Under the pieces are notes generated by a model. The model searched no databases, was not told the DNA's origin, and saw only the letters and a program-made list of their open reading frames with translations. Of a stretch of 64,000 bases of DNA, positions 23,909-29,007 are shown piece by piece. The DNA is taken from NCBI RefSeq assembly GCF_013340205.1, contig NZ_BJTG01000008.1, positions 248,001 to 312,000 on the forward strand. Direction: 5' to 3'. Positions within the stretch are counted from its first letter, which is position 1. Each line of letters starts with the position of its first letter. Source of the stretch: Anaeromyxobacter diazotrophicus (GTDB taxonomy: Bacteria; Myxococcota; Myxococcia; Myxococcales; Anaeromyxobacteraceae). The position numbers and the translations under genes were made by a program.

Positions 23909-24040
23909 TCAGGCGTGGCCGGAGGCCACCGCGAAGGCGAGCGCGAAGGCGACGGCCAGCGCGAGGAGCAGGAGGAGCCCCCCCGCCCAGCGACGCCGCG
24001 GTGCGTCGAGCCGCGCGCGGCGCTCGGGGTCGAGGTGCAT
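23909..24040 (-). CDS. 43-aa single-span membrane peptide
   Basis: ATG 24040 is preceded by GAGGAGGGACC. The 43 residues have a basic N-terminus (MHLDPERRARLDAPRRRWAG) and one strong membrane span (GLLLLLALAVAFALAFAVA). It lies 74 bases downstream of the ATP-grasp gene on the same strand and may belong to that operon, for example as an exporter accessory or immunity peptide. That role is speculative. Confidence 0.6.
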   Translation of the reverse strand: MHLDPERRARLDAPRRRWAGGLLLLLALAVAFALAFAVASGHA

Positions 24041-24114
24041 GGTCCCTCCTCGCGGCGGCTCGCGGCCCGCGGCCTGCCTGGCGGGTGGACGCGCGGCGCC
24101 CGGCGACGTGACGA

Positions 24115-25059
24115 TCACCCGCCCGCGAGGAGGCCCGCCAGCGCGTCCGTCAGCTGGAGCCCGGTCCGCCGCTCGACGAACAGCCACTGTCCGCCCGGGT
24201 TCACCTCCAGGAAGACCGCCCTCCCGTCCGGCGTCTCCCGCAGGTCGGCCGCGCCGTAGCGCAGGCCCAGGGTGCGGTGGAGGGCGAGCAGCCGGCGCTC
24301 CACCGCCGCCGGGAGCCCCACCGCCTCGAACCGCGCACGCTCCGGGTCGAGCCGCCAGTCCACCGGGTAGGCGGTCTCGCGCGCGTCGATGCGGCAGGTG
24401 AAGACGCGCTCGCCGACCACGGTCGCGCGCAGGTCGAGCCCGGGCACGTACTCCTGGAAGATGACCGGCGCGTAGCGGAGGGCCGGCAGGAGCGCGAGCT
24501 CCTCCGGGCGCAGCAGGCGCGCCTCGCGCCACAGCTCCGCCGACCCGGTGAACGGCTTGTAGAGGACCCGACCCGGCCCGCCCAGCTCCTCCACGAACGC
24601 CCGCGCCGCGTCCGGGTCGTTGGTGACGAGGGTCCGCGGCACCTCCAGCCCCGCCGCCCGCGCGGTCGCGAGCTGGTGCGGCTTGCGGTGCGCATCGCGG
24701 TCGGCGCCGAGCGGGTTCACCCAGCGCGCGCCGGCGAGCGCGAGCCAGAAGGCGCCCAGCGCGTGCTCGCACTCGTCCCAGGCGAACTGCCGGTGCGCCG
24801 GGTCGGAGATCTCCGGGTGGAGCTCCGGCATCCGCACCCGCCGCCACCAGACCGCCCGCACCTCCGCCGCGGTCACCGGGGGCTCGCCCTCGACCTGGAG
24901 CACCGCCTCCGCGCCGTCCGCGCCCTGCCTCATGCGCAGCGCCGCCCGCCTCGGGAAGCTGGCGGCGTCGAAGCGGGCGCAGCGCTCCCCGCGGGCGGCG
25001 AGCGCCGCCAGCAGCGGCGGCGCGTGCTCGTCGGACCCGTGGGTGACCGCGAGGATCAC
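24115..25059 (-). CDS. ATP-grasp peptide ligase, MvdC/MvdD-like (candidate graspetide maturase)
   Basis: A 314-residue ATP-grasp enzyme. The N-terminus (ILAVTHGSDEHAPPLL, then RFDAASFP) and the VWWRRVRMPE segment at residues 70-79 match the pattern of MvdC/MvdD-type ribosomal-peptide maturases, which form ester or amide cross-links between Ser/Thr/Lys and Asp/Glu side chains. The ATP-binding lysine (VLYKPFTG, K168), EYVPG and the metal-binding end (FLEVNPGGQW, residues 283-292) are present. Its ATG overlaps by four bases the stop of the upstream 120-aa gene, the likely substrate. RimK-type glutamate ligase is an alternative, but the N-terminal signature favours the RiPP family. Confidence 0.87.
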   Translation of the reverse strand: MILAVTHGSDEHAPPLLAALAARGERCARFDAASFPRRAALRMRQGADGAEAVLQVEGEPPVTAAEVRAVWWRRVRMPELHPEISDPAHRQFAWDECEHALGAFWLALAGARWVNPLGADRDAHRKPHQLATARAAGLEVPRTLVTNDPDAARAFVEELGGPGRVLYKPFTGSAELWREARLLRPEELALLPALRYAPVIFQEYVPGLDLRATVVGERVFTCRIDARETAYPVDWRLDPERARFEAVGLPAAVERRLLALHRTLGLRYGAADLRETPDGRAVFLEVNPGGQWLFVERRTGLQLTDALAGLLAGG

Positions 25060-25418
25060 CGCCCGGGCGCGGCCGGGAAGTGGTGGGGCGTGGCGAGCGC
25101 GAACGGCACCGCCGCCGGCCCCGGCGCTCCGGCGATCCAGGGCGGCGTCCCCGGCGGGATGATGCTCGACTGGACGTGGTCGGCCACCACGCCGGTCGCG
25201 TCGGTCACCGGGGGATCGCCCGCCGGCGGGGTCTCGCTCACGCGCTCGCCCGCCGCCTTGGTCGCGCCGGGCGACGGCTTGCCGGGCGCGCCCCCCGGGG
25301 CGGGCGGGGTGCGGCCGCCCTTGGACGGCGACTCGCCCGTACGCTCGCCGGCGGCGCTGGTGCTCTTCGGGTCCCCTCCCCGCGGCTCCGCCGTGAACCC
25401 GCTCGACTCGTCTGACAT
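25056..25418 (-). CDS. Candidate RiPP precursor for the adjacent ATP-grasp ligase
   Basis: A 120-residue peptide of unusual composition, rich in Pro, Gly, Ala, Ser/Thr and Glu/Asp. ATG 25418 has a strong GGGAGGAG upstream. It contains two related segments, residues 18-31 (STSAAGERTGESP) and 51-64 (ATKAAGERVSETP), each with Ser/Thr/Lys and Glu spaced as donor and acceptor sides for graspetide cross-links. A third cluster (VTDATG) lies at 71-76, and the C-terminus has a PFALATPHHFP motif (105-115). It overlaps the ATP-grasp gene (ATGA). The precursor role is inferred from context and composition; the leader/core division is uncertain. Confidence 0.75.
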   Translation of the reverse strand: MSDESSGFTAEPRGGDPKSTSAAGERTGESPSKGGRTPPAPGGAPGKPSPGATKAAGERVSETPPAGDPPVTDATGVVADHVQSSIIPPGTPPWIAGAPGPAAVPFALATPHHFPAAPGR

Positions 25419-25534: not shown

Positions 25535-28438
25535 TCAAGGGCGGCCCCGTTCAGGGCCGAGCGATCGCTGCAGCGCGCGCGCCTCGGCGAGCAGCGGCTC
25601 CCCCTCGTCGGCGCGGCGCCAGAGCGCGAGGAGGCGCGCCAGCGCGCCGCGCGCCGCGTCCTCGTCGCCCAGGCGCAGGCTGGCGCGCGCCAGGACGAGG
25701 AAGCTGCGCGGATAGGCCCAGCTCCGCAGCAGGCGCACCGGGTCGTAGACGGCGTGGAAGCGCCGCACCGCGTCGACGGCCTCGCGGTCGCGGCCCGCGT
25801 CGAGCGCCACCTCGGCCGCGAGGAAGGCCGGGGGGAGCGTGTAGCTCGGCGACCGATCGCGCGGCTCCGCCTCCGCGAGCTCGCGCGCCGCGTCCTCGGG
25901 CCTCCCCGCCCGCCACAGCCGCACGGCGGCGTACATGCGCGCCGGCGGCGAGGACGGATCGAGGCGGCTCGCCAGCCGCTCGGCGAGCGCCGGGAGCCGG
26001 CCGTAGGCGAGGGTGGAGGCGAGGTTGGCGCTCTCGCCGGCGGGATCGAGGTGCTCGGCCTCGCGCGCGAGCGCGGCGGGGTCGCCGCCGGCCAGGTAGC
26101 TCACCCGCAACGAGCGCCCGAGCGCGTGGCCGGGATCCGCCCTGAACCCCGGCGAGCGCAGGAGCTCCAGCCCCTCCCGCCGGCGGCCCTGGGTGCCGAG
26201 CACCGCCGCCAGGTCGAGCCGCGCCCAGGGGTCGTTCGGGGCCAGGGCGAGCTGCCGCCGGAGCTCGCGCTCGGCCTCCTCCAGGCGATCGTCGAAGACG
26301 AGCGCCTTCACCAGGTCCTCCTCCGCGGTCGCGCCGCCCCCGGCCTCCAGCTCGTCCCGGGCGGCGGCGATCGCGCCCGCGCGGTCTCCCGCCCACCCGC
26401 GCGCCTCCGAGAGCGCGTGCAGCACCGCGGGCTGGCGCGGCAGCGCCTGGAGCACCTCGATCCGCCGGCGCAGCTCCTCGCCCCGGCCCAGGTGGCCGAG
26501 CGAGTCGACGAGGTACTCGAGGGCCCAGCCGTGGGCGGGATCGAGGGCGAGCACGCGGTCGAGCCACGGCAGCGCCTCCGAGAAGGCGCCGCGGTCGTGC
26601 AGGAACTCCCCCGCGGTCAGCAGCACCTTGGTCTCGCGCGGGAAGCGGCTCGCCGCGGTGCGGTAGAGGCCGAGGGCGTCCTCGTCCCGCCCGTCGAGGT
26701 GCGCGGCCCAGGCGCGGATGAGGAGCCGCTCCTTCTCCGGCACGCGGTCGAGGTGCTTCACGGCCTCCGCGATCTGGGCCCGCTCCTCCTCGCCCGGCTC
26801 CCGGCCGCCCGGCGGCGCGACCGCCAGCGCGTAGCGCGCGAGCGCGAAGGTCGGATCGACCTCCAGCGCCCGGCGGTAGAGCTCGGCGCACTCGTCCAGG
26901 CTCGCCTGCCCGACGCGCGCCACCCGCTCCGAGCACTGCTCGCCCTCGAAGTAGCGCTGGTAGGCCTCGAGGCTCCCGGTGAGCGCCTGGGCGACCCGCA
27001 CCTCCGAGGCGCGCACGTCCTCGGCGCGCTCGTTGAGCTCGCGCCGCACGCGCGCCGAGATGCGGTCGACCAGCGCGGAGAGCTGCGCCTCGCCGGGCGC
27101 GACCTCGCGCACCTCGAACAGCCGCCGCTCCGCCGCCGGATCCACCGCCTCGAGCGCCAGGGCGTAGCCCGCGCCGTCGCGGGTGAGCCGGCCGAGGAGC
27201 AGCGCCCTCACGCCCGCCGCGCGCGCCACCTCGCGCGCCAGGTCGCCCTGCAGGCGCGCCTCCTCGCGCCCGCGCTGGCGGGCGAGCTCGACCAGCCGGG
27301 CCCGCGTCACGACGTCGAGCGCGCGGGACTGCTCGAGCGAGGTGGCGAGCAGCCCCGCCAGCCCGTCCAGCGCGGGCTGGCCGGTGGCGTTCTCGAGGTC
27401 CGCCACGGCCACCGGGACCGGTCCGACCGGCGCGTGCCAGCGGCGCCACAGGTGCCCGGCGACTGCGCCGGAGAGGATGGCGCAGGCGAGCCCGGCCGCC
27501 AGCGCGAGCCTCCTCCGCACGGCGCGGCGGCGGGCGCCGCCCGGCAGCGCCGCGGCGACCTCCTCCAGGGCGACGAGCAGCGCCGCCCCGTCCGCCGGTC
27601 GGAGCGCCGGGTCCGGCTGGAGCGCCCGCGCGATCACCTCCGCCAGCGGGCGCGGGGTGCCGGCGGGCAGGCGCGGCGCCGCGCCGGGTTCCCGGGGCGG
27701 CGCGCCGCCCACCATGGCGGCGAGGAGCGCGCCCACCGCGTACACGTCCACCGCCGGCCCCTCCGGGCCGCCCCGGCGCTGCTCGGGCGCCATGAAGGCG
27801 GGCGTGCCGGCGGACTTGAGGTCGCGCCCGAGGACGTGGGCGATCCCGAAGTCGAGGAGCTTCACCCCGCCCTCTTCGGTCACGAAGACGTTGCCGGGCT
27901 TGAGGTCGCGGTGGACCACCCGCGCCGCGTGGGCGTGAGCGAGCGCCGCCGCCACCCCGGCCGCGAGCGCCACCGCGCGCTCCGGGGCGAGCGGCCCGCG
28001 CGCGAGCCGCTCGGCCAGCGTCTCGCCGCGGAGCAGCTCCAGCACGAGGTAGGGCCCCGCCTCGCAGCGGCCGGCGTCGTAGAGCGTCACGATGCCGGGG
28101 TGGTTGAGGCGCGCCACCGCCTCGGCCTCCTCGGCCATCCAGGCCGAGGCGGGCGCCCGCGCGCCGGCGCCGGGCCGGAGCGCCTTGAACGCGACCCGCC
28201 GGTGCAGCTCGCGGTCCTCCGCCTCGAAGACCACCCCGAAGCCGCCCTGCCCCACCTCGCGCAGGAGCTCGAAGCGGCCGACCACCGCCCCCGGCACGAG
28301 GAGCCGCTCCCAGCCCTCCTCCTGGACCGGCGGCGCGCGGGCGAGCTCCTGGAGCAGCGCGGAGAGCGCCCCCTCGTGGCAGCGCGTGCGGCCGTCGTCC
28401 GCCGCGCCCGCGGGCGCCGGTCCCGGCGCCGCCGTCAC
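25535..28438 (-). CDS. Membrane serine/threonine protein kinase with TPR repeats
   Basis: A 967-residue kinase. The catalytic domain has GQGGFG (63-68), VAFK with the ATP-binding Lys85, HRDLKPGN (176-183), DFG (196-198) and APE (217-219), so it appears active. A membrane span follows near residue 355 (LALAAGLACAILSGAVAGHL). The extracytoplasmic half carries a domain starting VPVAVADLENATGQP and then many TPR helices. GTG 28438 overlaps the stop of the sigma factor gene (GTGA). Probably an envelope-sensing kinase working with that sigma factor. Confidence 0.93.
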   Translation of the reverse strand: MTAAPGPAPAGAADDGRTRCHEGALSALLQELARAPPVQEEGWERLLVPGAVVGRFELLREVGQGGFGVVFEAEDRELHRRVAFKALRPGAGARAPASAWMAEEAEAVARLNHPGIVTLYDAGRCEAGPYLVLELLRGETLAERLARGPLAPERAVALAAGVAAALAHAHAARVVHRDLKPGNVFVTEEGGVKLLDFGIAHVLGRDLKSAGTPAFMAPEQRRGGPEGPAVDVYAVGALLAAMVGGAPPREPGAAPRLPAGTPRPLAEVIARALQPDPALRPADGAALLVALEEVAAALPGGARRRAVRRRLALAAGLACAILSGAVAGHLWRRWHAPVGPVPVAVADLENATGQPALDGLAGLLATSLEQSRALDVVTRARLVELARQRGREEARLQGDLAREVARAAGVRALLLGRLTRDGAGYALALEAVDPAAERRLFEVREVAPGEAQLSALVDRISARVRRELNERAEDVRASEVRVAQALTGSLEAYQRYFEGEQCSERVARVGQASLDECAELYRRALEVDPTFALARYALAVAPPGGREPGEEERAQIAEAVKHLDRVPEKERLLIRAWAAHLDGRDEDALGLYRTAASRFPRETKVLLTAGEFLHDRGAFSEALPWLDRVLALDPAHGWALEYLVDSLGHLGRGEELRRRIEVLQALPRQPAVLHALSEARGWAGDRAGAIAAARDELEAGGGATAEEDLVKALVFDDRLEEAERELRRQLALAPNDPWARLDLAAVLGTQGRRREGLELLRSPGFRADPGHALGRSLRVSYLAGGDPAALAREAEHLDPAGESANLASTLAYGRLPALAERLASRLDPSSPPARMYAAVRLWRAGRPEDAARELAEAEPRDRSPSYTLPPAFLAAEVALDAGRDREAVDAVRRFHAVYDPVRLLRSWAYPRSFLVLARASLRLGDEDAARGALARLLALWRRADEGEPLLAEARALQRSLGPERGRP

Positions 28439-29007
28439 GGCACGAGGCCCTCCTCGCGCGCCGCGTCGGCGAGCTTCGCCTTGAGGCGCTCGAAGCGCTT
28501 GCGCAGCGCCGCCTCGTCGGGCCGCGCCGGCGCGTCGCTCGCCAGCACGTCGGCCACCTCGGACCAGGAGAGCCGCCGGTCGAGCCGGAGCGTGAGCAGG
28601 GTCTGCTCCTCGGGGTCGAGGGTCGCGCGCAGCCGCTCGAGCGCGACCGCCTGCCGTTCGCGCTCCACCGCGGTGGTGGCGAAGATGCGCCCGGCGAGCT
28701 GCGACGCGAGCGTCGAGCCGAGGCGCTCGCCGCGGCGGTGGCGCGGCTCGCGCCGGAGCGACACGGCGCAGCGCCAGGCGATGCCGTAGCACCACGTGCG
28801 CACGGTCGAGTCGCCGCGGAACCCCGGCAGGCCGCGCCACACCGACTCGGCGAAGTGCGAGAACGCGTCGCCGGCCTCGCCCTCGTCGCGCAGGACCGCG
28901 CGCAGGTAGCCGAGCACCTCCGGCCCGAGCGCCTCCAGCACCCGCGTGGCGGCCTCGTCGCGCTGCCCGCGCGCGAGGAGCTCCGTCACCTGCGCGTCGA
29001 GGGACAT
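28435..29007 (-). CDS. Sigma-70 family (ECF-like) RNA polymerase sigma factor
   Basis: A 190-residue sigma factor with region 2 (DAFSHFAESVWRGLPGFRGD, then VRTWCYGIAWRCA) and region 4 (LSWSEVADVL and a helix with RKRFERLKAK). There is no separate anti-sigma gene; the overlapping downstream gene is a membrane Ser/Thr kinase, a pairing common in myxobacteria and planctomycetes in which the kinase may regulate the sigma factor. The start is at ATG 29007. Confidence 0.9.
   Translation of the reverse strand: MSLDAQVTELLARGQRDEAATRVLEALGPEVLGYLRAVLRDEGEAGDAFSHFAESVWRGLPGFRGDSTVRTWCYGIAWRCAVSLRREPRHRRGERLGSTLASQLAGRIFATTAVERERQAVALERLRATLDPEEQTLLTLRLDRRLSWSEVADVLASDAPARPDEAALRKRFERLKAKLADAAREEGLVP

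Follow-up and report, generated by a model that had tools for sequence, protein, structure and literature searches.

The locus considered here raises the question of whether a 120-residue open reading frame (ORF) that overlaps an ATP-grasp gene encodes the ribosomal precursor of a cross-linked peptide and, if it does, by which feature the neighbouring ligase could recognise it. The window, as we call the whole 64,000-nucleotide stretch of Anaeromyxobacter diazotrophicus DNA that was analysed, is part of a 4.83 Mb genome (labelled G000), and an initial annotation made from its letters had described a candidate graspetide-type unit composed of a precursor, an ATP-grasp ligase and a membrane peptide. 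We put the chances that the locus is a graspetide-type RiPP cassette at a little over three in four. The features observed in its favour are the ligase's family and fold, a gene order that is conserved, and a conserved motif at the precursor's C-terminus.

Gene layout and type of ligase

All three ORFs of the initial annotation are present on the minus strand, and the overlap of four bases that it had reported between the 120-aa gene and the ATP-grasp gene is there, in the form of a GTGA (Table 1). The order of transcription is ECF-like sigma factor, Ser/Thr kinase-TPR, 120-aa ORF, ATP-grasp ligase and 43-aa membrane ORF, with the sigma factor and kinase genes overlapping by 4 bases in the same way as the precursor and ligase genes. 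The precursor starts with an ATG directly preceded by a good Shine-Dalgarno sequence, GGGAGGAG, and has a GC content of 0.72/0.73/0.95 at codon positions 1/2/3, the high second-position value being due to a composition rich in Pro, Gly, Ala and Thr. For the strong translation named in the initial annotation, what the sequence shows is the ribosome-binding site. The GTG start of the ligase sits within the GTGA overlap (codon-position GC 0.81/0.53/0.98), and the membrane ORF starts with an ATG that has GAGGAGGG 5' of it. Neither a transporter nor a leader peptidase was found in the cassette.

Table 1. Features of the locus, with window coordinates and the evidence for each.
Feature	Position	Strand	Evidence
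Predicted graspetide-type precursor, 120 aa	25056-25418	-	RBS, GTGA overlap with ligase, follower motif
C-terminal recognition (follower) motif AVPFALATPHHF, residues 103-114	25077-25112	-	Common to 44/46 ligase-clade upstream proteins
Candidate core repeat 1, TSAAGERTGESPS, residues 20-32	25323-25361	-	Internal duplication; putative core role
Candidate core repeat 2, TKAAGERVSETPP, residues 53-65	25224-25262	-	Internal duplication; putative core role
Graspetide-type ATP-grasp ligase, 314 aa, GTG start	24115-25059	-	Profiles, PDB matches, phylogeny, model, Foldseek
Ser/Thr kinase with TPR repeats, 967 aa; probable regulator	25535-28438	-	Pkinase 137.7 bits and TPR
ECF-like sigma factor, 190 aa; probable regulator	28435-29007	-	Sigma70_r2 28 bits, cut-off 24
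Single-span membrane ORF, 43 aa; membership in unit not supported	23909-24040	-	Good RBS only

The resemblance of the ligase to MvdC/MvdD maturases, first suggested by the look of its N-terminus, was confirmed by NCBIfam scores of 234 bits for TIGR04187, 192 for MvdC and 172 for MvdD vs. 45 for RimK, and by the presence of the Pfam MvdD pre-ATP-grasp domain PF21068 (59.4 bits, cut-off 27). The scores nonetheless lie below every curated NCBIfam cut-off (172, 192 and 234 bits vs. 475, 425 and 350 for TIGR04184, TIGR04185 and TIGR04187, respectively). In a sequence search of the PDB, MdnC, MdnB, AMdnB, PsnB and CdnC all ranked ahead of RimK, and when the AlphaFold model of the ligase (pLDDT 95.1, from an input alignment of 34 ligases) was submitted to Foldseek, ranks 1-32 were all taken by graspetide macrocyclases (MdnB/MdnC/PruB/CdnC/PsnB), with RimK appearing from rank 33. 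Within the VWWRR segment, to which the initial annotation had also pointed, W71, R73 and R74 show no or almost no variation among 34 relatives, and the window ligase has retained the catalytic and invariant positions. Taken together, the NCBIfam, Pfam, PDB and Foldseek results identify a ligase of the graspetide type that lies outside the named families.

Phylogenetically, the window ligase falls within a clade of 61 ligases (support 100/97) that is separate from the two clades of microviridin-type ligases of the order. Inside the clade it groups weakly (80/55) with ligases that accompany the astacin-tail proteins described below, and a single clade of all Anaeromyxobacteraceae ligases, that of the window included, was not rejected (AU p 0.10). 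The early proposal of a graspetide-type ligase next to a precursor unlike those of microviridin and plesiocin is thus in agreement with profiles, fold and phylogeny, as well as with the recognition motif of the precursor.

The C-terminal motif of the precursor and the tails of enzymes

The C-terminus of the precursor reads AVPFALATPHHFPAAPGR and holds the PFALATPHH motif. For comparison, the gene directly upstream was inspected at ligase loci from the GTDB collection (54 loci) and from the order, a sample skewed towards the window ligase, exact peptide words of which were used to find the loci. In the ligase clade, outside the family, a motif of the PF[VIA][LMQV] type, mostly PFVLATPHHS, was found near the C-terminus of 44 of the 46 upstream proteins, followed in most of them by a short helix-like segment; according to the records the sources are Chloroflexota, Actinomycetota, Pseudomonadota, Planctomycetota, Acidobacteriota, Verrucomicrobiota and Bacteroidota. 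Ahead of the motif, up to 41 of these 46 proteins have a Pfam enzyme domain (astacin in 16, trypsin-like in 15, M43 in 6, tyrosinase in 2, subtilase in 1 and matrixin in 1). The tail that connects enzyme and motif is built from repeats with many Thr/Ser, Lys, Asp and Glu residues, among them PTLKFRDD, TIKEVRKDPIQDPV and PTSIIDDRG; astacin tails of Streptomyces and Polaromonas have TxKExxKDP repeats. Among 25 sampled tails, 20 were more self-similar than their shuffled versions, no more than 2 of 200 shuffles reaching the observed score.

A follower profile of 22 columns, built from 41 enzyme-tail sequences of which none came from Anaeromyxobacteraceae, placed the precursor first among 711 ORFs of the window (E 2.2e-5, with the runner-up at 0.85). 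At the DNA level, the window contains a single match to the PF[AV]L[AST]TPH pattern, within the precursor ORF, against none in 100 shuffles; across 24 whole family genomes there is likewise one match, and it lies in this ORF. As judged by its motif, the window precursor is a member of the enzyme-tail group, and it has the appearance of an enzyme-free member of a larger group whose proteases or tyrosinases carry the same tail. The PFALATPHH motif may serve for docking of the ligase. In known graspetides such as microviridin, plesiocin and fuscimiditide, the recognition segment is N-terminal. The window precursor departs from that usual layout, in which the core is C-terminal and which is a matter of arrangement, not a requirement of the chemistry, since its motif occupies residues 103-114 of 120; in the window as well as in the enzyme tails the order seems to be reversed, with the recognition motif at the C-terminus and the repeats ahead of it.

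Beside other ligases no full-length homologue of the precursor was found, the weak matches looking compositional, and the core residues are therefore not visible by conservation. What is conserved of the 120-aa gene next to the ligase, as the initial annotation had expected it to be, is its slot and the short Pro-Phe motif, not its full-length sequence. An internal duplication, formed by the AAGER repeats TSAAGERTGESPS and TKAAGERVSETPP, is only moderately significant (its score was reached by 24 of 2000 shuffles); these repeats contain Ser/Thr/Lys together with Asp/Glu, and the last 30 residues of the precursor are without Asp or Glu. We infer the core residues and cross-links of the precursor from its sequence, with the two AAGER repeats as the candidate core.

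Several of the related loci deserve mention on their own account. At two loci of Chloroflexota (L034:3431-4900 and L036:3406-4848), it is a tyrosinase, not a protease, that precedes TLKFRDD repeats and PFVLxTPHHS, and the tail is thus not tied to proteolysis. A 171-aa precursor ORF of Chitinophagales (L049:1466-1978) has TIKFRDD repeats and PFVLANPHHS with no enzyme domain in frame, which is the enzyme-free layout of the window in a different phylum. In Streptomyces, an astacin-tail protein (L040:3748-5001) exceeded the NCBIfam cut-off for LegP, a Legionella effector metalloprotease (304.9 vs. 300 bits), and its predicted N-terminus is without an obvious signal peptide. An AlphaFold model of a Streptomyces astacin-tail protein was poor (mean pLDDT 46), suggests a C-terminal helix only, and was left out of the argument. 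No kinase was present among the predicted genes at the enzyme-tail loci examined.

Considering the repeats and the motif jointly, we lean, with less assurance than for the cassette itself, towards the wider view that this branch of ligases naturally cross-links repeat-rich tails of enzymes (astacin, trypsin-like, M43, subtilase, matrixin and tyrosinase) via a C-terminal PFVLATPHH follower, and that the window locus is an enzyme-free derivative which Anaeromyxobacteraceae placed behind a Ser/Thr kinase, joined in several loci by a sigma factor. It is the anatomy of these proteins, not chemistry, that speaks for cross-linked tails on whole enzymes, where the cross-links could serve as a cis inhibitor, a stabiliser or an anchor of the enzyme. 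No description of a peptidase tail as a precursor was found in the freely accessible literature searched.

The family cassette and alternative explanations

In the loci of Anaeromyxobacteraceae the precursor stands alone, without an enzyme domain. A kinase-TPR homologue lies directly upstream, in the order kinase-precursor-ligase, at all 14 family ligase loci with enough context (the window, contig C15 of the same genome, G002, G004, G005, two in G007, two in G010, G012, G016, G019 and two in G022). At seven family loci, the window among them, a related sigma factor gene lies near the ligase as well. The initial annotation, whose reading of a precursor and a graspetide-type ligase is supported, missed both this conserved upstream pair and the C-terminal position of the motif. 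Against TIGR04510, a model derived from peptide-modification systems, the kinase scores below the cut-off, and members of its family also occur without a ligase; as this family extends beyond the ligase loci, the kinase appears to be a regulator used by the RiPP, not made for it. Kinase and sigma factor would be the putative controllers of precursor and ligase.

The 43-aa membrane ORF, counted at first as the third member of the unit, does follow the ligase, and because no counterpart was found beside the other ligases of the family, it is not an established part of the cassette. Elsewhere in the family, small single-span membrane ORFs occur directly before sigma/kinase modules (L112:7071-7277, L134:2857-3054 and L135:3029-3226), and the ORF of the window could be part of this habit of the modules rather than of the RiPP.

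Other loci of the family vary in what occupies the precursor slot (L089:6964-11177 on G000:C15, L092, L097 and L123). A second kinase-precursor-ligase cassette of the same genome, on contig C15, is found at a conserved site between the phosphoglycerate mutase gene and rlmH, its precursor slot being filled by a small Lys-rich, histone-H1-like ORF, while in G002 and G007 a Lys-rich ORF is joined by a separate follower-like ORF, and in the same-genus genome G001 the kinase is kept with a toxin-antitoxin pair in place of the rest. Sister precursors carry RPFG, RPWG, VPFG or PWGC. Homologous 63-aa precursors (Y.WSI.TAP.SIYP ... PWGCD) beside ligases of genomes G010 and G005 (L099:7389-7580 and L131:6967-7158) make a good pair for mapping the core. 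Long MPNGL pentapeptide-repeat ORFs adjoin two kinase-TPR genes at L129:1-3975 (G015:C107), and the family relative Anaeromyxobacter oryzae (L067) has the same sequence features as L094 of G022.

A graspetide-type ligase could have another protein as its main substrate, with the 120-aa ORF merely docking the ligase in trans, as might be read from the separate follower-like motif adjoining the Lys-rich ORF in G002 and G007 and from the lack of conservation of the window core. We consider this unlikely, keeping in mind that nearly all relatives have the motif and a repeat tail in one protein, that the motif occurs nowhere else in the window genome, and that the precursor's own repeats hold Ser/Thr/Lys and Asp/Glu. 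Slightly less probable again is a decaying locus, in which little of the core and nothing of a former enzyme domain would be left in the precursor, with the ligase about to be lost too: the precursor is short and unique, and a same-genus genome has the homologous kinase and no close ligase, but the frames are intact, with a strong RBS, the GTGA overlap and coding-type composition, the ligase has kept its catalytic and invariant positions, and a stand-alone precursor is common to all family loci. A RimK-like ligase that adds glutamate residues to a protein is very improbable and was dropped, as the distant similarity (45 bits with the RimK model, RimK structures from Foldseek rank 33) falls far short of that to every graspetide profile and structure, the protein carries an MvdD pre-ATP-grasp domain, and the ligase, which the initial annotation had left to be placed between the two, falls with the graspetide maturases in profiles and Foldseek alike.

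For the graspetide-type cassette, we propose that the sigma factor, probably activated by the adjacent Ser/Thr kinase, would switch on the precursor and ligase genes, the two products being translated together via the GTGA overlap. The ligase would dock on the PFALATPHH segment at the precursor's C-terminus and spend ATP to phosphorylate Asp/Glu side chains ahead of the motif, possibly in the two AAGER repeats, upon which nearby Ser/Thr/Lys side chains would close omega-ester or omega-amide rings. The cassette adds a putative RiPP control circuit of sigma factor, kinase, precursor and ligase that can be tested.

Comparison with known systems

A precedent for activation by a kinase exists in ECF43 sigma factors, with the Hanks-type kinases EcfK/PknS and a QTTA-type phospho-threonine motif in region 2.2 (PMC13147305). 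As in ECF43, the sigma factor gene of the window adjoins a Ser/Thr kinase gene; the QTTA motif is absent from the window sigma factor, where the region reads EAGDAFSHFAE. With the microviridin system (MdnA, MdnB, MdnC) the locus has the fold and family of the ligase in common, whereas the window has a single ligase, which belongs to a separate clade. A PFFARFL leader, a KYPSD-type core and a pair of ligases are all lacking in the window and all present at other loci of the order. Neighbouring proteases are also listed for groups 9 and 32 of a 2026 RODEO survey, which regards them as possible maturation or resistance genes (PMC13097080); compared by description, these groups are similar to the present loci in having proteases of several families nearby.

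Makarova et al. (2022) were unable to predict precursors for their ATP-grasp branches 7 and 8. They remarked on the unrelated peptidases there, and in branch 7 on homologues of YscW, and suggested that the role of the peptidases is to set peptides free from other proteins (PMC8939145). Like branch 7, loci related to that of the window combine a ligase with peptidases of unrelated families and YscW, and as the Streptomyces and Polaromonas loci have a YscW homologue after the ligase, the present clade very likely overlaps branch 7; at the window locus itself, peptidase and YscW neighbours are absent. In contrast to that proposal, the peptidase tail here looks like the precursor, and the enzyme tails are probably, on the grounds of their sequences, the precursors that could not be found for branch 7. 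This would offer a possible answer to the published puzzle of ATP-grasp branches linked to unrelated peptidases without known precursors. If the peptidase tails are precursors, graspetide chemistry would also be a post-translational modification of full-size enzymes, with a scope of at least six enzyme families and seven or more phyla.

Fuscimiditide (ThfA/ThfB) and the RPFG-leader graspetides share with the present system the ligase family and a short Pro-Phe recognition motif. Unlike here, fuscimiditide naturally has its leader at the N-terminus and an aspartimide formed by a methyltransferase; no gene for an aspartimide-forming methyltransferase was found in the window cassette. A parallel to the layout of the window precursor is an engineered one, in which the fuscimiditide leader with its RPFG tetrapeptide was moved behind the core and activity was kept, so that a C-terminal leader is workable (PMC13003496). 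Nature seems to use the layout that was built in that study, and if the peptidase tails are precursors, the C-terminal motif described here would be a natural recognition tag directly useful for protein cyclisation.
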